A DNA stretch of 64,000 nt from Bordetella genomosp. 10 (GTDB lineage: Bacteria; Pseudomonadota; Gammaproteobacteria; Burkholderiales; Burkholderiaceae_B). The stretch covers positions 2,046,001 through 2,110,000 of the forward strand of contig NZ_NEVM01000005.1 of assembly GCF_002261225.1 (NCBI RefSeq), read 5' to 3'. Positions 57,152 through 64,000 of this stretch are shown here, one piece after another (position 1 is the first letter of the stretch; each line of letters opens with the position of its first letter). The notes beneath the pieces are model-generated. The model worked only from the letters and a program-made list of their open reading frames with translations. It was not told the origin of the DNA and ran no database searches. The translations under genes were made by a program, and so were the position numbers.

Positions 57152-58663
57152 TCAGCGGCCCAGCGGCAGGGACAGGTTCATGTTGACGGCGTATTCGCCC
57201 GTGACCACGTCGCGGTCCGCGCCCAGGGCCAGGCGGACATTGGGAGCCAGCAACATGCTCTGCGACAGGCCGAAGTGGCGTTCGGCCAGGACGCCGTCGG
57301 CATCGCGCACCCCGTAATAGGTGCCGGTGAGCGTGCCCCAGCCGCCCATGGGCAAGCCGGCGGACAAGGTGTTGCGCGACTGCCGCGTATCGATGGGACC
57401 GGTGGAATAGGTGGACAGGTCGTTATAGCCGGCCTGGGTCTGTTCGTTGGCATAGCCCAGCGTGATGCCGGACCAGACGTCGACCTTGTAGCCCAGCCGG
57501 TAGCGCCAGCTTTCCGCCTCGTCATAGCGGCTTTGCGTGGCGCCGGCGTTCAGCGTGCCCCATTGCCCGATCGAATAGGTCGACCCCAGGCCGGTGGCGC
57601 TCAGGGCGCGCGCGCTTTGCGCCTGGCCTTCGACCGTCCAGTCCTTGGTGACGCCGTAGCGCAGCGCGCTGCTGCCGGCCGCCGAGCCATAGGCGATGCC
57701 GCCCTGGGTGGCCGACGTATCGGTGTAGTCCAGGTGGCCGAACATGGACGAATAGCCCAGCTTGCCTTCCGCCACCGGGGCGTCGGCGGCGGCCGTCAGG
57801 TTGGAAAAACCGAAACCGCCTATCGTGGCCGCGCTGCCCCAGGCGGGGGTGTACGTCGATTGCGACCCCAGCGAAAGGGAAGGCCCTTCGACGGAGCGAT
57901 AGGTCAGGCTGCGATCGCCTTCCTCGATGCCGCCCACGGTCGAGATGCCGGCGAACCAGGGCTTGGGCGCGCCCAGGGGACGGGCCCATTTGACCTTGCC
58001 GGGGGTCCCCGGGGCCGGCGGCTCGTAGCTCAAGGCGTAGCGGGATGCGGCGGGCGCCATGAGGTCGTCGGGAAGCGCGTCCTGCGCCTGGGCGGCGGTG
58101 TTGCGGCACTGCACAGGGCTGGCGATTTGCGAGGCCGCGGGATCGACCGGCTGCGCGGCCAGTCCGGGATCGGGCCGGCCCAGCACCGCGGCCAGGGGAT
58201 CGTCCGCCGGCGCCGTTCCGTTTGCTCCATTCGCCCCGTTCGTTCCGTTTGCTCCGTTCGCGCCGCTTGCCACGTTCGCCCCATCCGCAGCATTCCCGGC
58301 ATTCGCCGCGTCGACCGCCCTTGCCGCGCGCGCCGTGGCGTCCGCGCCCGGCGCGGCCGGCTGCGTCGCGGCGGGCAGCGTAATCCGTCCGGTCCCGCTG
58401 CCTGCGTCATTCACCGCGGCGGCCACCGACTCGGCCGTGGGATCGGCCGCGGGCGCGCAAGGCGGCAATTCCGCCGTCAACATCACCGAATTGCCCACCT
58501 GGACCGGCAAGGGCTGGGCGGGCGCCAAGTTGCCGATGGTGGCCGCGACATACTGGGGCGGCGCGGCGACGGACAGCGCGGGCACGGCCAGCGCCAGGCC
58601 GCCGGCCAGGCGGGCCAGCCGCGCGCGCCGGAGACGGGCAGGTGCGTACGCAGGAGGAAACAT
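57152..58663 (-). CDS. usher-like outer-membrane beta-barrel protein with collagen-like repeat
   Basis: A 503-residue exported protein. The signal peptide is residues 1-35 (basic start, 'LAGGLALAVPALSVAA'). A disordered Ala/Pro/Asn-rich region (about 70-180) follows, with GANGANGTNGANGANGT-type repeats. The C-terminal 300 residues alternate as outer-membrane strands: 'LRYGVTKDWTVEGQAQSARA', 'YSIGQWGTLNAGATQSRY', 'YRLGYKVDVWSGITLGYANE', ending 'YAVNMNLSLPLGR'. These strands resemble the pore of fimbrial ushers, but plug, chaperone-binding and fimbrial genes are absent. ATG 58663 is preferred; a TTG at 58687 also exists. Confidence 0.75.
   Translation of the reverse strand: MFPPAYAPARLRRARLARLAGGLALAVPALSVAAPPQYVAATIGNLAPAQPLPVQVGNSVMLTAELPPCAPAADPTAESVAAAVNDAGSGTGRITLPAATQPAAPGADATARAARAVDAANAGNAADGANVASGANGANGTNGANGANGTAPADDPLAAVLGRPDPGLAAQPVDPAASQIASPVQCRNTAAQAQDALPDDLMAPAASRYALSYEPPAPGTPGKVKWARPLGAPKPWFAGISTVGGIEEGDRSLTYRSVEGPSLSLGSQSTYTPAWGSAATIGGFGFSNLTAAADAPVAEGKLGYSSMFGHLDYTDTSATQGGIAYGSAAGSSALRYGVTKDWTVEGQAQSARALSATGLGSTYSIGQWGTLNAGATQSRYDEAESWRYRLGYKVDVWSGITLGYANEQTQAGYNDLSTYSTGPIDTRQSRNTLSAGLPMGGWGTLTGTYYGVRDADGVLAERHFGLSQSMLLAPNVRLALGADRDVVTGEYAVNMNLSLPLGR
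58214..58264 (-). repeat. 9-bp-unit coding repeats (Gly-Ala-Asn)
   Basis: Degenerate tandem 9-bp units encode GAN/GTN triplets of the outer-membrane protein's disordered region. The unit keeps the frame, so length changes would not break the gene. Confidence 0.6.
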
Positions 58664-58928
58664 GGTGAATGTGATGAGTAACGGCAAGATGGCAGCGAAA
58701 TAACGACCGGACCCTGGTCAAAGACGGGGCGCGGAAACGGGGATTTTAGGCTGCTTGCTGCGGCACGGAAACGCCTGTGCCCCCATCGTCGGAAACAAAC
58801 CATGACCGTGTCGCGACGCCGCCACCACCCCGCCCCGGCACGGGCGAAAGCCAAACGTCAAATACCGTATATTTCAGTCGATTTCCCGCCTCTTGCACAG
58901 GAAGCCGGACCATAACAATATGGGCGCC

Positions 58929-59636
58929 ATGGATACGTCTACCCCCCACACCAAGCTGTTGGTCATCGATGACGACCCTGCCCTGCGCCAATTGCTGGCC
59001 GACTACCTCAACCGGCACGGCTACGACACCCTGCTGGCGCCGGACGCCAGCGACCTGGCCGCGCGCATCGCGCGCTACGCGCCCGACCTGCTGGTGCTGG
59101 ACCGCATGATGCCGGGCGGCGACGGCGCCGATGCCTGTCGGCGCCTGCGCGAACAGGGGGAAGACATTCCGGTGATCCTGCTGACCGCCCGCGACGAGGC
59201 GGTCGACCGCATCATCGGCCTGGAGGCCGGCGCGGACGACTACCTGGGCAAGCCCTTCGACCCGCGCGAACTGCTGGCGCGCATCGAGGCCGTGCTGCGC
59301 CGCAAGCGCGGCCCCTCGGCGCTGACGCGCGACGCGCCGGTGACCTTCGGCCCCTTCACCTTCGACCCCACCACGCGCCAGTTGCTGCGCGAGGACACGG
59401 TGGTCAAGCTGACGGGCGGCGAGATCAACCTGCTGGAAGCCCTGGTGCGCAACGCCGGCAAGCCCCTGTCGCGCGAACGGCTGCTGGCGCTGGCGCGCGA
59501 CGACGACGCCGGCGAACGCAACGACCGCGCCATCGACATCGCCATCCTGCGCCTGCGCCGCGCCATCGAGGACGATCCCAAGCAGCCTCGCTGGATCCAG
59601 ACGGTGTGGGGCATCGGCTATCGTTTCTCGCCCTGA
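58929..59636 (+). CDS. OmpR-family response regulator
   Basis: A 235-residue two-component regulator: receiver ('KLLVIDDDPALRQLLADYLN', phospho-Asp in 'DLLVLDRMMPGGDG', Lys in 'DDYLGKPFDPRELLARIEAV') and an OmpR-type winged helix ('LTGGEINLLEALVRNAGKPL', 'WIQTVWGIGYRFSP'). The start is ATG 58929 or in-frame ATG 58920. The kinase gene begins 6 bp after its stop. It resembles OmpR and may regulate porins or envelope genes, possibly the divergent outer-membrane protein. Confidence 0.94.
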   Translation: MDTSTPHTKLLVIDDDPALRQLLADYLNRHGYDTLLAPDASDLAARIARYAPDLLVLDRMMPGGDGADACRRLREQGEDIPVILLTARDEAVDRIIGLEAGADDYLGKPFDPRELLARIEAVLRRKRGPSALTRDAPVTFGPFTFDPTTRQLLREDTVVKLTGGEINLLEALVRNAGKPLSRERLLALARDDDAGERNDRAIDIAILRLRRAIEDDPKQPRWIQTVWGIGYRFSP

Positions 59637-59642
59637 TTACGC

Positions 59643-61208
59643 ATGTCCTTTTCGCTCCGCAAGCTGCTGCCCCGTTCACTGCGCGCGCGCCTGACGCTGC
59701 TGGTGCTCGGCTGCGTGCTGCTGGCGCAGGCCGCCACCCTGGTGGTCGGCGCCCACTACCGCGACCGCTATCTCGAGGAAGTGGGGCTGGACTACATCGC
59801 CACCACCATACGCACCTTGCGCGCGGCGCTTTCGGAAATTCCGGCGGAAGACCGCGCCGACTTCGTGCGCGACGCCTCGCAAGGCCAATGGCACCTGTGG
59901 GCGCGCACCCTGCCGGCCGAAGCGCAGATACAGCGCTTCAACTGGGGCGGGCTGCCACCGCCGCCTCCCCCGCCGCCGCCCGAGGCCGATCCGCAAAACG
60001 CGCCCAACGCCGGCCGCCAGCCCGGACCGGGCGGCGCCGCGGGCGCCAATAACCCCGCCGGCCCCGCCGCGGGCCAAGGCCAACGCCCGGGCGGCGAGGA
60101 CCGGGGCGGCGGCCGCGATCGATTCCGCGACCGCCGCGGCGGCGCCGACGGCGACACCCGCAAGGACCTGCGTGAACTCGTGCGCCAGCTCAACCGGCGC
60201 CTGAACGACGGCACCCGCGTCGCCCTGTCGCGCGGCCCCACCGCCGAAGTCTTCATTTCCCTGGCCAACAACCCGACCAGCGAGGACGCGCCGCGCCTGC
60301 GCGAATGGCTGGTCATTCCCGTCGACCGCCTCGACCCGCCGACTCCGACGCCGCTGATCGTCGCCTGGCTGGGCGGCCTGGGCCTGGTGCTGCTGCTGGC
60401 GGCGGGTTTTTCCTGGACCATCACGCGCCCCATCACCCGCCTGGCCCATGCCGCCGACCAGTTGGCGGCGGGACAGCCGCAGCGCGTGGAGCCCGCCGGC
60501 CCCCACGAGACCCGCGTCCTGGGCGAGCGCTTCAACGCCATGCTGGACGCCCTGGCCGAATCGGAATCGGTGCGCCGCACCCTGCTCGCCGGCCTGCCCC
60601 ACGACCTCAAGGGGCCCTTGTCGCGCATGTGGCTGCGCATCGAAATGGCCGACGACCCCGTGCTCAAGGAAGGACTGCGCAAGGATTTGCAGGACATGCA
60701 GCACATGGTGGACCAGTTCATCGGCTTCGTGCGCGGCACCGATCCGGCCGGCTACCGCTACGCCCCCATCCCCCTCGCGGAATGGGTGGTGGAGCGGGTG
60801 CATAACTGGGCGGGCGCCGGCTCGCCGGTGCAGTTGACCATGGCGCCGGACACCGCCATGACCCTGCAAGGCGACGCGGTGGCGCTGGCGCGGCTGCTGG
60901 ACAACCTGATCGGCAACGCCCTGCACCACGGCGCGCCGCCGGTCGAGGTGACGCTGGAGAAGCGCGACGGCGAGGCCGTCCTCACCGTGGCGGACCATGG
61001 CCCGGGCATTCCGCCGGAGCGGCGCGCGGAAGCCTTGCGCCCCTTCGCCCGGCTGGACGACGCGCGCACCCGCAGCGGCAACGTCGGCCTGGGGCTGGCG
61101 CTGGCCGAGGCCATCACCCGCGCCCACGGCGGCCGCCTGACCCTGGGCGCCGCGCCCTGGGGAGGATTGAGCGTGGAAATCGTCCTGCCGCTGCAAAACG
61201 GAGAATAG
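59643..61208 (+). CDS. EnvZ-like sensor histidine kinase with Pro/Gly-rich periplasmic insert
   Basis: A 521-residue inner-membrane kinase: TM1 about 16-37, periplasmic domain 38-235, TM2 about 236-258, HAMP ('TRPITRLAHAADQLAAGQPQ'), HisKA with His320 ('LLAGLPHDLKGPLSRMWLRI') and HATPase ('DNLIGNALHHGAPPVEVTLE', 'VADHGPGIPPERRAEALRPF', 'GNVGLGLALAEAITRAHGG'). The kinase core follows EnvZ. Residues 104-172 of the sensor domain are low complexity, starting with nine or ten Pro in a row and then Gly/Asn/Arg-rich, which is unusual in a periplasmic sensor. Confidence 0.92.
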   Translation: MSFSLRKLLPRSLRARLTLLVLGCVLLAQAATLVVGAHYRDRYLEEVGLDYIATTIRTLRAALSEIPAEDRADFVRDASQGQWHLWARTLPAEAQIQRFNWGGLPPPPPPPPPEADPQNAPNAGRQPGPGGAAGANNPAGPAAGQGQRPGGEDRGGGRDRFRDRRGGADGDTRKDLRELVRQLNRRLNDGTRVALSRGPTAEVFISLANNPTSEDAPRLREWLVIPVDRLDPPTPTPLIVAWLGGLGLVLLLAAGFSWTITRPITRLAHAADQLAAGQPQRVEPAGPHETRVLGERFNAMLDALAESESVRRTLLAGLPHDLKGPLSRMWLRIEMADDPVLKEGLRKDLQDMQHMVDQFIGFVRGTDPAGYRYAPIPLAEWVVERVHNWAGAGSPVQLTMAPDTAMTLQGDAVALARLLDNLIGNALHHGAPPVEVTLEKRDGEAVLTVADHGPGIPPERRAEALRPFARLDDARTRSGNVGLGLALAEAITRAHGGRLTLGAAPWGGLSVEIVLPLQNGE

Positions 61209-61234: not shown

Positions 61235-62392
61235 TCAGGACTTGCCCGTCGCCGGCGCGGCGGGTGCAGCCGCGGCCGGGCTCGAACCGCCGGCGCCGCC
61301 ACCCGTGCCCGGCGCGGAGGCGACGGCCGCGGAGGCCGCCGCCGGCAAGGCCAGCCGGGGCGGCTTTTCCTTGCCGAACACGGAGCGGTAGGAAAGGATG
61401 TTGAACACCAGGATCAAGGGGATCGCCACCACGGCGCCGGCCAGCACCAGCCGCAGGGACCCGGGGGAAGCCGCGCCGTCCCAGATCGTCATGTCGTCCA
61501 GGATGAGATAGGGAAACAGGCTATAGGCCAGCCCGCCCATCATCAGCAGGAACAGGCAGACGCACAGGACGAAGGGGACCCAACTGAAACGCTCGGCCCG
61601 CGTCGGCAGGCGCGCCAGGACCATCTCGGTCGTCACGAATCCCAGCAGCATCGCGCCCCAGGTGGAAACGGCCAGCCCCAGGTGCGACAGATTGCTCCAT
61701 TTATAGAAGATGCCGGCGTTGGCCAGGCCCAGCGTCACCGCGATCGCCACCATGCCCGCGGCGGCCCAGCGTATGGCATGGCGCGCCCAGTTCACGGCGC
61801 GCCGCTGCAGGTCGCCCTCGACCCGCATCACCAGCCAGGTCGAGCCCAGCAGCACGTAGCCCGCCACCGCGCACAGCCCGACGAACACGGAAAAGAAGGT
61901 GTAGCCCGGCAGGCCCTGGTAGTTGGTGGCGATGCGCCCCAGCACCATGCCCTGGCCGAAGGCCGTCATCAAGGAACCGGCCCAGAAGGCGAACAGCCAG
62001 CGCGGCTTGTGCTCGTTGCGGGCGCGGAAGCGGAACTCGAACGACACGCTGCGCAGCACGGCGCCCAGCAGCATCAGGGTCAAGGGCGTATAGAGCTGCC
62101 CCAGCACCACGCCCCAGGCGAAGGGAAAGGCCGCGGCGAACAGTCCCACCCCCAGCAGCAGCCAGAACTCGTTGGCGTCGCGCCAGGGGCTGAGCAGCGT
62201 CATCATGCGGCCGCGCTCGGCCGGCGGGGCCAGTTGCAGCAGCATGCCCACGCCCAGGTCGAAGCCGTCGAGCACCGTGCCGGCCAGGATGAGGACGAAG
62301 AGCATGGCCATGAAGGCCAGCGGCATCCAGAAACCAGGGTCTTGCGGATTCAGGCCCAGCGATGCGGCAAGCGAGGTAAAAGCGGAAATCAT
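61235..62392 (-). CDS. cydB: cytochrome bd-type oxidase subunit II (divergent CydB)
   Basis: A 385-residue membrane protein with about eight helices. 'LAGTVLDGFDLGVGMLLQL' and 'SPWRDANEFWLLLGVGLFAA' are the CydB landmarks, the latter with Arg where canonical CydB has the Trp before Asp-Gly/Ala-Asn-Glu. The last 45 residues are Ala/Gly/Pro-rich and probably disordered. ATG 62392 overlaps the cydA stop (ATGA), so the two subunits are made together. Its partner has lost canonical haem ligands (see next entry), so it may not be part of a standard oxidase. Confidence 0.88.
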   Translation of the reverse strand: MISAFTSLAASLGLNPQDPGFWMPLAFMAMLFVLILAGTVLDGFDLGVGMLLQLAPPAERGRMMTLLSPWRDANEFWLLLGVGLFAAAFPFAWGVVLGQLYTPLTLMLLGAVLRSVSFEFRFRARNEHKPRWLFAFWAGSLMTAFGQGMVLGRIATNYQGLPGYTFFSVFVGLCAVAGYVLLGSTWLVMRVEGDLQRRAVNWARHAIRWAAAGMVAIAVTLGLANAGIFYKWSNLSHLGLAVSTWGAMLLGFVTTEMVLARLPTRAERFSWVPFVLCVCLFLLMMGGLAYSLFPYLILDDMTIWDGAASPGSLRLVLAGAVVAIPLILVFNILSYRSVFGKEKPPRLALPAAASAAVASAPGTGGGAGGSSPAAAAPAAPATGKS

Positions 62393-63732
62393 GCGGGGGC
62401 CCTGGCGAATTTGCGCACCGGCACCACGCCATAGCGCGCGGCATGGAACAGCATGCTGACGAAGGCCCACAGCAGCAGGCCGTACAGCAGCACGTAGCCC
62501 ACGGTGCCGTACAGGAGGCCGCGGCCCGTGGCCGGCCCCAATATCTCGGTCTGCGTGATCGCGCCGTTGACGATATAGGGCTGGATGCCGACCAGGGTCA
62601 TCACCCAGCCCGCCAGCAGCACGATGGCGCCGGAGAAGGTCAGCGCGCTGAGCACCCGCAGCCAGCCGCGCGGCAGCACGGCGGGATCGAGCCCGCGCTT
62701 GCGCAGGCGCAGCAGGGTGGCCCAGGCGGCCAGGAACATCAGCCCCCACATGATCACCATCACCCGCAGCGACCAGAACGTGAGCGCGACCGGCGGCTGC
62801 ATGCCGGAATAATTCTCCAGCGCCAGCAGCTTGCCCTTGACGTCACGGCCCAGCCAGCGCTCGCCGGCGCCGGGGATGGACACGCTGGCCAGGTTGCTGC
62901 TGGTTTCGGCGTCGGGCATGGCGAACAGGACCAGGTCCGGGCTGTCGCTGTCGTGCCAGAAGCCGACCGCCGCGGCGGCCTTGGCCGGCTGGTAATGCGC
63001 GATCATGAGGCCCGCCTTCATCCCCGCCGGGGCCAGCGCCAGGATGGCCAGGCACGCCACCACCAGCGCCGCGCGAAAGCCCAGCCGTTCGCCGTCGTCC
63101 AGGGGACGCCGCAGGGCCTGCCAGGCGGTAATTCCCATGACCATGAAGGACACGGTCAGGGCCGCGCACAGGAGGTTGATGCCCAGGGTCAGCTTCAGCG
63201 AGGGATTGACGAGCACGGCCATCCAGTCGAACACCTGGTAGCGGCCGTCCACCGCCACCGCGCCGTCCGGCGTCTGCATCCACGACACCAGCGCCAGCAC
63301 CCAGAAGACCGCCACCAGTTGCCCCAGGGCGACCATGAAGACCGACAGCGTGTGCACGGCCTCGGACACGCGCCGCTGGCCGAACAGCATCACGCCCAGG
63401 AAGCAGGATTTCAGCGCGAACACCGACAGGACCGCGAAGCCCAGCAAGGGGCCGGCGACGTTGCCGATGCGGTCCATCAGGCCGGACCAGATGGTGCCCA
63501 CCTGCACCAGCACCGGCACGGCGGCGGCCAGGGCCAGCACGAAGGCCAGCGCGAAGATGCGCACCCAGAACCGGTAGGCGGCGGTCCAGCCCGGATTGCC
63601 GCTGAAACGGGCCTTCAACTTGAAGAAAAGCAGCAGCCAGGACAAGGCCAGCCCCAAGGCCACGAAAAGCGCCAGGAAACCGAGACAGACCGTGAATTGC
63701 ACCCGGCCCAGAAGTAAAGGGGGAAGGATCAT
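62389..63732 (-). CDS. cydA: cytochrome bd-type subunit I homologue lacking canonical haem ligands
   Basis: A 447-residue membrane protein that aligns along its length with CydA ('GRVQF' start, 'LFGQRR', 'SWMQTP', 'GITAW', 'RVMV', 'AGWVM'). Compared with E. coli CydA as I remember it, His19 is Leu20, His186 is Ile185 and Glu445 is Leu380, while Met393 (Met325, in SLRVMV) is kept. Proton-path Glu99 and Glu107 are Ala100 and Lys108. The GRQPW motif is GIQPY and the Q-loop is shorter. This is a bd-superfamily scaffold without a canonical haem d/b595/b558 set. A quinol oxidase role is therefore doubtful. Confidence 0.88.
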   Translation of the reverse strand: MILPPLLLGRVQFTVCLGFLALFVALGLALSWLLLFFKLKARFSGNPGWTAAYRFWVRIFALAFVLALAAAVPVLVQVGTIWSGLMDRIGNVAGPLLGFAVLSVFALKSCFLGVMLFGQRRVSEAVHTLSVFMVALGQLVAVFWVLALVSWMQTPDGAVAVDGRYQVFDWMAVLVNPSLKLTLGINLLCAALTVSFMVMGITAWQALRRPLDDGERLGFRAALVVACLAILALAPAGMKAGLMIAHYQPAKAAAAVGFWHDSDSPDLVLFAMPDAETSSNLASVSIPGAGERWLGRDVKGKLLALENYSGMQPPVALTFWSLRVMVIMWGLMFLAAWATLLRLRKRGLDPAVLPRGWLRVLSALTFSGAIVLLAGWVMTLVGIQPYIVNGAITQTEILGPATGRGLLYGTVGYVLLYGLLLWAFVSMLFHAARYGVVPVRKFARAPA

Positions 63733-63986
63733 GATGCGCGCTAGTTTAGAGCGACTTGGCGGAATCGGCGCGGAGGCTTCGTCCAGGACAGGTTTCGGGA
63801 AGTTTCATCGGGCGCAAGCCCCCCGCTCATCGCCTGGAAGCCCCGGCGCGAGCAGTCCCGGCGCCGGCGGACATGGCGCCGCCAGCGCGATTTGCGCCCG
63901 CCCGGGCGGCCGATTCGGACCCCGGCGGGCCCGAAGGACGCGGACGTGGCAAAATTGTCCTTTTGCCGCCGCCCCGACGTAACAGC
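63733..63986. other. cydA upstream region
   Basis: 254 bp without a convincing gene. It holds the cydAB promoter region and the 5' region of a possible plus-strand gene. No clear FNR-like palindrome was recognised. Confidence 0.5.
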
Positions 63987-64000
63987 ATGACGACCGCCCC
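63987..64000 (+). CDS. possible start of a plus-strand gene, cut by window end
   Basis: ATGACGACCGCCCC at the very end of the window (Met-Thr-Thr-Ala...) could open a gene divergent from cydAB. Only 14 bases are visible, with no clear ribosome-binding site. Confidence 0.25.

Follow-up and report, generated by a model that had tools for sequence, protein, structure and literature searches.

A cytochrome bd-like CydA/CydB pair with replaced haem-ligand residues at the cydAB3 locus of Bordetella and Achromobacter

Introduction

Eight oxidase loci are attributed to Bordetella bronchiseptica. One of them, cydAB3 (BB4012-4011), is classed among the high-affinity bd oxidases (PMC11257404) and is again called a bd-type oxidase elsewhere (PMC13367067). 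In Bordetella pertussis, bp3224-3225 is described as a second cytochrome bd operon that is unexpressed in laboratory conditions (PMC12914433). Here we analyze a cydA-like and a cydB-like gene (products P0001 and P0002) in a 64,000-nucleotide stretch of Bordetella genomosp. 10 (assembly GCF_002261225.1, contig NZ_NEVM01000005.1, positions 2,046,001 to 2,110,000), referred to below as the window. Most haem-ligand positions of canonical cytochrome bd are replaced in the window CydA, and we lean, by a little, towards a combined reading in which window-type members are haem-free bd-fold complexes and the channel at the interface of the two subunits (the H-channel) may be the active part.

In Escherichia coli CydA, His19 is presumably a haem ligand, and we take Lys252 and Glu257 to be quinol-site residues. 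Elsewhere in the superfamily, the OR-N/OR-C families and archaeal CydAA' are reportedly covered by a 2021 classification by Murali. The OR-N/OR-C bd-like oxidases keep two active-site haems and are without the quinol site. These groups are other branches of the superfamily, in which the quinol site is altered or the CydA subunits are paralogous (PMC10839748, PMC13189123). For E. coli, the ligands of haem b558 are given as His186 and Met393, and Glu445 and Glu99 as the residues at haems b595 and d (PMC6853902), while Glu107 is conserved in more than 90% of CydA homologues (PMC13189123).

Loss of haem-ligand and quinol-site residues

Both window proteins are full-length matches to the expected Pfam families, P0001 to PF01654 (Cyt_bd_oxida_I, 339.2 bits with a cut-off of 26.2) and P0002 to PF02322 (Cyt_bd_oxida_II, 216.4 bits with a cut-off of 35.6), and the bd fold of subunit I is predicted with high confidence. 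Residue numbering follows E. coli K-12 CydA from NC_000913, with which P0001 was aligned. The alignment places Leu20 at His19, Ala100 at Glu99, Lys108 at Glu107, Ile185 at His186, Val256 at Glu257, Leu380 at Glu445 and Ile383 at Arg448; Met393 is kept as Met325 and Arg391 as Arg323, and Lys252 is also present. The window protein therefore differs from E. coli bd-I and bd-II (6rko, 6rx4, 7ose, 7oy2) at all of these positions except the last three, and of the residues by which a functional bd would be recognized, His19, Glu99, Glu445, His186, Glu107 and Glu257 are replaced and Met393 and Lys252 remain.

To describe the wider family, 113 CydA sequences were aligned: the window, E. coli, 86 genome loci, eight canonical references and 17 chosen relatives. 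The genome loci comprised 56 from a genome scan with six exact peptide patterns of P0001, which is biased to close kin, and 30 from further genome searches. The 17 relatives were picked from 179 distinct proteins, all aligned separately, that made up the best 120 of 399 and the best 120 of 240 relatives above threshold in protein searches. Two sets were defined from E. coli position 107, which was Lys in 90 sequences, Glu in 23 and anything else in none, so that Lys107 in 90/90 holds by definition; a later locus in the same syntenic place, L144, has Arg at this position.

All ligand sites were canonical in the 23 Glu107 sequences. The Lys107 set held no Glu99, His186 or Glu257 at all, and retained His19 in 16/90, Glu445 in 11/90 (Asp in a further 8), Met393 in 8/90 and Arg391 in 90/90, while Lys252 was kept in 64/90, the window among them. 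Both His19 and Glu/Asp445 were missing from 69/90, and all five ligand positions were lost in 63/90; the old ligand positions were occupied mostly by Leu, Val, Ile, Met and Phe. Since the two sets separate in this way and the Lys107 sequences form one clade in a tree built without the trait columns, ligand loss is tied to Lys107 far beyond chance.

An initial annotation, made from the window alone, had named the residues at these sites, and all of them agree with the alignment to E. coli. It had described a protein that keeps the bd fold and has lost three of four axial haem ligands. The full-length Pfam match and the alignment uphold the fold and the loss; the count changes when Glu99, which faces haem d, is included, with four of five usual positions gone. 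Its remark that only Met393 and its Arg remain holds in the window, but Met393 is no feature of the clade. A quinone device, which it had offered as one possible function, agrees poorly with the absence of Glu257 from the whole Lys107 set, although Lys252 persists in many members.

The replaced sites leave room for a reduced or re-liganded haem protein, which would hold haem by other residues, His127 and His430 for instance, or by His19 and Glu445 where these persist, and would perform redox chemistry with another electron donor. His127 (89/90) and His430 (85/90) are the only His residues that reach 85% in clade CydA, 14/90 members keep His19 together with Glu/Asp445, and there are bd-like families whose haem and quinol sites differ (OR-N, PMC10839748). 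Both His residues also occur in canonical proteins, however (21/23 and 6/23, respectively), His430 being the only one that most of these are without. His19 and Glu445 were lost on several branches, and the residues listed above occupy most of the old ligand positions. The initial annotation had named substitute His/Met ligands as a finding that would refute it. A listing of all His, Met, Cys, Tyr and charged positions present in 85% or more of the clade contained no new His/Met or His/His pair; CydA showed no new pair of His or Cys across the family, and in clade CydB every His stayed below 85%. The Met positions enriched in the clade were Met133 of CydA and Met23 and Met257 of CydB. We consider a re-liganded haem protein unlikely.

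Phylogeny and order of loss

A tree was built without the ten trait columns; once near-copies (at least 85%) had been dropped, it held 69 of the 113 rows. The 50 Lys107 rows in it form one side of a branch with support of 100/100 and a long stem (0.84). Outside them lie, in order, L103/L104, the other canonical short-Q-loop Burkholderiales proteins, CioA-like references and bd-I. The placement that the initial annotation had left open is thereby settled as one clade beside the short-Q-loop canonical bd oxidases, and on this tree the clade is a descendant of a canonical short-Q-loop bd quinol oxidase.

The canonical short-Q-loop set (L101-L104 and L121-L130, with L103/L104 nearest) shares with the clade the CydA/CydB pair, the superfamily fold and a mean identity of 34% per subunit. 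It differs in that all haem, quinol-site and Glu107 residues are intact, as they are at every ligand site of the short L103 and L104 oxidases, and in that glnS stands beside 0/14 of its loci in the fetched stretch. L103 and L104, the closest relatives of the clade, come from the Bordetella-like genomes G105 and G102, which hold a clade member as well. CioA-type and bd-I-type CydA proteins of the same genomes (L058-L065) belong to the same superfamily and occur alongside the clade member in Bordetella and Achromobacter, but have all ligands and occupy separate tree branches. In this tree, which was drawn without OR-N/OR-C sequences, the clade branches beside Burkholderiales quinol-oxidase-type proteins. 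It differs from OR-N/OR-C in the missing active-site ligands of the window and of the 69/90 noted above, the 14/90 with His19 and Glu/Asp445 standing apart.

The fewest changes required on the tree were one each for Glu99, Glu107, His186 and Glu257, four for Arg448, and five each for His19, Glu445, Met393 and Lys252. The single counts place four replacements on the stem, those of Glu99, the b558 His, the quinol-site Glu and the proton donor, and indicate that the other ligands were lost later and repeatedly. The first branches inside the clade form an open fork. Intermediates survive: L119 keeps His19, Met393, Glu445 and Arg448 with Lys107, L052 and its kin keep His19 with Asp445 and Arg448, and many relatives of L056 keep His19 and Glu445 (L056 itself has Gln there).

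Distribution and identity with cydAB3

At least 146 of 268 genomes of the Achromobacter/Bordetella family hold a probable clade member, a figure obtained from 150 listed rows minus four that were canonical on reading (G105:C22, G102:C8, G220 and G148), with sequences read for part of the 146. Among the best 30 loci of an order sample of 399 genomes, seven were of the Lys107 type, all in genomes of the Achromobacter family, and 23 were canonical. Among the best 30 loci of a phylum sample of 378 genomes, 29 were canonical at all 10 sites, the exception being Achromobacter G001.

The gene order around the pair is stable. In 72 clade loci, CydB was present and adjacent in every case, glnS was found in 71, of which 68 have it adjacent and divergent, min genes in 70, recQ in 63 and a histidine kinase in 62; each neighbor was named from the Pfam match of a single example. 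No glnS, kinase, recQ or min genes were present in the stretch fetched around the 14 canonical sister loci. From these sequences, the locus looks ancestral and the gene vertically inherited.

The same order leads to cydAB3. In B. pertussis, BP3222 (OmpR-like) and BP3223 (RisK) lie side by side (PMC5020355), and BP3224 corresponds to BB4011 (PMC1891110). The downstream risK-deletion primer printed in PMC5020355 has an exact match in one of the 268 genomes, G088, inside cydB of the clade locus; the gene order there is glnS-cydA-cydB-kinase-regulator, and its CydA is a clade member with Leu19, Gly99, Lys107, Leu186 and Asp445. Because gene order and primer agree, the clade can be said at sequence level to include Bordetella cydAB3 (BB4012-4011; BP3225-3224). 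The window pair and cydAB3 are the same locus, and the difference between them is the functional label alone, which the sequence does not support. At this locus in G088 (L132, B. pertussis group), cydB is split over two reading frames, in agreement with a frameshift published for half of the compared B. pertussis strains (PMC11257404); a C/G tract counts 9 in BP3224 versus 6 in BB4011 (PMC1891110).

Co-occurrence with canonical genes bears on a further explanation, in which the complex, or its CydB, is a pseudo-enzyme that associates with the cell's canonical bd oxidase or regulates it. Dead paralogues often regulate live relatives, and a canonical CydA was also found in 5/5 first-searched genomes. 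On the other side, the clade CydB is dedicated and always adjacent, and 7/9 re-searched genomes (completeness unstated; eight picked for apparent absence of the canonical gene, plus G088) were without a separate canonical CydA. Six of those seven had a single CydA match, and G213 had two, seemingly one gene across two contigs; the remaining two were G230, with an extra unexplained fragment, and G088, with a canonical copy. Such a partnership seems to us distinctly unlikely.

The neighboring kinase suggests another role, that of a membrane sensor feeding a RisK-type histidine kinase, which we regard as improbable. A kinase of this type accompanies the pair in 62/72 loci, and RisK controls RisA, which is needed by most virulence-repressed B. 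pertussis genes (PMC5020355). However, the kinase and cydAB operons converge in the window and so are not co-transcribed, in 10/72 loci a kinase is missing from the fetched stretch (which is short in some cases), recQ intervenes in Achromobacter, and the whole glnS-to-ruvB block is syntenic.

Selection and constraint on the two subunits

The ratio of non-synonymous to synonymous substitution rates (dN/dS) was 0.098-0.169 for cydA in 9/9 pairs and 0.045-0.132 for cydB in seven valid pairs; two further cydB pairs, with L005, were not counted owing to a wrong reading frame. The initial annotation had read the ATGA coupling of cydB to cydA as a sign of selection instead of decay; the overlap is present, and the cydA ratios bear out the selection. 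Decay, with the pair a useless paralogue that is being lost, is accordingly the explanation to which we give very little chance. In its favor, cydAB3 is broken in 7/14 compared B. pertussis strains, laboratory transcription of the genes is low (PMC11257404), and cydB lies in two frames in G088. Host restriction is, however, known to have led to gene loss in B. pertussis. Outside B. pertussis the selection data contradict decay, which was rejected; the ratios above, the probable copies across the family and 91 CydB columns that are at least 97% invariant all stand against it.

Constraint is inverted between the subunits, and CydB is now the more conserved one. Among the tree rows with both genes read (36 clade and 13 canonical sequences), mean pairwise identity in the clade was 47.3% for CydA and 55.7% for CydB, with CydB higher in 568/630 pairs, whereas in the canonical set it was 58.5% and 54.1%, with CydB higher in 10/78 pairs. 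The 14 canonical sisters have 119 invariant columns in CydA and 78 in CydB; the 73 clade sequences kept 35 and 41 of these, respectively, and a further 11 columns of CydB versus 2 of CydA had switched to another fixed residue. Only 52 columns of clade CydA reach the 97% level.

Conservation of the H-channel

In E. coli, the H-channel is a polar path that leads from the cytoplasm to the haem d site. Its contacts were taken from the E. coli papers, and clade residues were placed on them by alignment. The E. coli water chain leads through D119A, K57A, K109B, D105B and Y379B to D58B (PMC6853902; the final letter denotes the subunit), and the H-channel residues listed are K53A, K57A, D105B, D58B, E107A and E74A (PMC13189123). 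In clade CydA, Lys57 is replaced by Arg in 90/90 (canonical Lys 19/23) and Glu107 by Lys in 90/90 (canonical Glu 23/23), and the Glu74 position is Leu in 86/90 (canonical Ser 16/23, Glu 5/23). In CydB, Asp58 is kept in 73/73 clade and 14/14 canonical sequences, as are Arg100 and Arg107; Asp105 is replaced by Glu (73/73; canonical Asp 12/14), Lys109 by Arg (73/73; canonical Lys 14/14) and Trp57 by Arg (73/73; canonical Trp 14/14). Trp57 adjoins Asp58 and is unnamed in the E. coli channel papers, and Tyr379 has no counterpart in the clade, nor in the sisters. A profile of clade CydB matched 6rko_B with E=4.6e-23.

The polar path would no longer be needed for catalysis, and yet appears as fixed as before or more so, with added positive charge. 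A fixed and more basic H-channel favors ion or anion handling over a relic or a quinone device, in our interpretation.

Proposed function

We strongly infer that window-type members very probably carry no haem and have no oxidase activity, in line with the suggestion of the initial annotation that the complex is unrelated to O2 reduction; as an O2 reducer it is an unlikely candidate. The complex probably does a different job from that of the annotated oxidase. Our best guess for this job, which falls somewhat short of an even chance, is an ion or anion conduit or a sensor. A fuller scheme can be put forward tentatively: the bd fold would have turned once into a haem-free complex, in which CydB would lead and the H-channel would be the active part, as a basic, Lys/Asp-gated conduit for anions or protons or as a sensor.

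Under this scheme, Lys108, Arg54, Arg58 and Arg120 of the A subunit would contribute to a basic cytoplasmic half-channel, which Arg71, Asp72, Arg114, Glu119, Arg121 and Arg123 of the B subunit would complete as a strongly basic one (window numbering). The Lys-Asp pair would sit where the proton donor Glu107 once served haem d, and the site may bind an anion or let it pass, or may conduct protons with this pair as the gate. The emptied haem cavity, aliphatic at the old ligand positions, may act as a gate or sensor, and CydB, formerly the accessory half, is now the more constrained subunit.

Several observations weigh against a haem-free conduit. The part of the clade that keeps His19 (16/90), Glu/Asp445 (19/90) or both may still hold one or two haems, and the conserved His127 and His430 belong on the same side. 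Two of the basic channel positions are weak markers: Lys53 is Arg in 90/90 of the clade, but the canonical proteins are already mixed (Arg 8/23), and Asp119 is Arg in 86/90, with canonical proteins again mixed (Asp 3/23, Arg 3/23). Many membrane proteins have a cytoplasmic face rich in Arg, following the positive-inside rule, and the CydB model has a predicted local distance difference test score of only 72.3. A B. bronchiseptica strain with cyd3 as its only oxidase could not be made (PMC11257404), which fits a non-oxidase and is consistent with it without being proof; low cydAB3 transcription explains the failure as well, and cco-, cio-, ctaD2- and cyo2-only strains likewise could not be made (PMC11257404).

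This cydAB locus is treated as a terminal oxidase in genome annotation and in current papers. If the complex is haem-free, Bordetella and Achromobacter have been assigned one respiratory oxidase too many, and matches to the CydA/CydB domains are insufficient to infer oxygen respiration. We know of no other non-redox member of the bd superfamily; this would be the first, spread over a family that includes the whooping-cough agent. It would amount to a natural dissection of cytochrome bd, with the proton channel and the partner subunit kept and the haem-binding residues discarded, and its living intermediates make the order of loss readable from sequence. No report of ligand loss in the clade was found in the literature searched; the Murali 2021 classification may include such sequences.

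Gene pair, neighbors and upstream region

The coordinates of the gene pair, its neighbors and the codons discussed above are collected in Table 1.

Table 1. Features of the window, with positions counted from its first nucleotide (ORF, open reading frame; aa, amino acids)
Feature	Positions	Strand	Basis or remark
cydA-like gene, P0001, 447 aa	62389..63732	minus	ORF; start 63732, stop codon ends 62389
cydB-like gene, P0002, 385 aa	61235..62392	minus	ORF; ATGA overlap with cydA at 62389-62392
CydA Leu20 codon (E. coli His19)	63673..63675	minus	alignment
CydA Arg58 codon (E. coli Lys57)	63559..63561	minus	Arg 90/90
CydA Ala100 codon (E. coli Glu99)	63433..63435	minus	alignment
CydA Lys108 codon (E. 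coli Glu107, terminal proton donor of canonical bd)	63409..63411	minus	alignment; role from PMC13189123
CydA Ile185 codon (E. coli His186)	63178..63180	minus	alignment
CydA Met325 codon (E. coli Met393)	62758..62760	minus	kept in window, only 8/90 of clade
CydA Leu380 codon (E. coli Glu445)	62593..62595	minus	alignment
CydB Arg71-Asp72 codons (E. coli Trp57-Asp58)	62177..62182	minus	73/73
CydB Glu119 codon (E. coli Asp105)	62036..62038	minus	73/73
CydB Arg123 codon (E. coli Lys109)	62024..62026	minus	73/73
CydB C-terminal tail, Ala/Pro/Gly-rich	near 61235-61340		
Conserved element 5' of cydA	63742-63751	minus	CTCTACACTA / CTCTAAACTA-like
OmpR-type response regulator	58893..59636	plus	Pfam; position of B. 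pertussis BP3222
Sensor histidine kinase	59643..61208	plus	Pfam HATPase_c and HAMP; position of B. pertussis RisK, BP3223
glnS (Glu/Gln-tRNA synthetase), first codons, divergent	63987..64000	plus	window end cuts gene; same place in L001, Pfam
511-aa ORF	57152-58687	minus	long Ala/Asn/Gly-rich stretch

The CTCTACACTA / CTCTAAACTA-like element of the window is also found upstream of cydA in L001, L005, L006, L030, L041, L052 and L056. In 7/8 upstream stretches its end is separated from the cydA start by about 9 bases, and in L040 it lies further up. The element resembles a -10 box very near the ATG, and the cydA transcript may be leaderless. The upstream region of E. coli cydA, the only canonical one compared, contains a perfect FNR box, whereas in the 180 bases upstream of clade cydA (a few starts of which may be misplaced) the best match had at most two mismatches in 1/56 loci versus 16/280 shuffled stretches, and thus there is no sign of FNR control.

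The 511-aa ORF had no Pfam match at E 0.001, and relatives of it lie near recQ in 36/56 scanned loci. The long C-terminal tail of CydB is present in the window and in L001 and is missing partly or wholly in 71/73 clade members. Downstream of cydAB, 13/72 clade loci (L039, L041, L042, L044-L048, L105, L107, L115, L117 and L118) carry a gene for a ClC-type chloride channel with a CBS domain, named from the Pfam match of one example.

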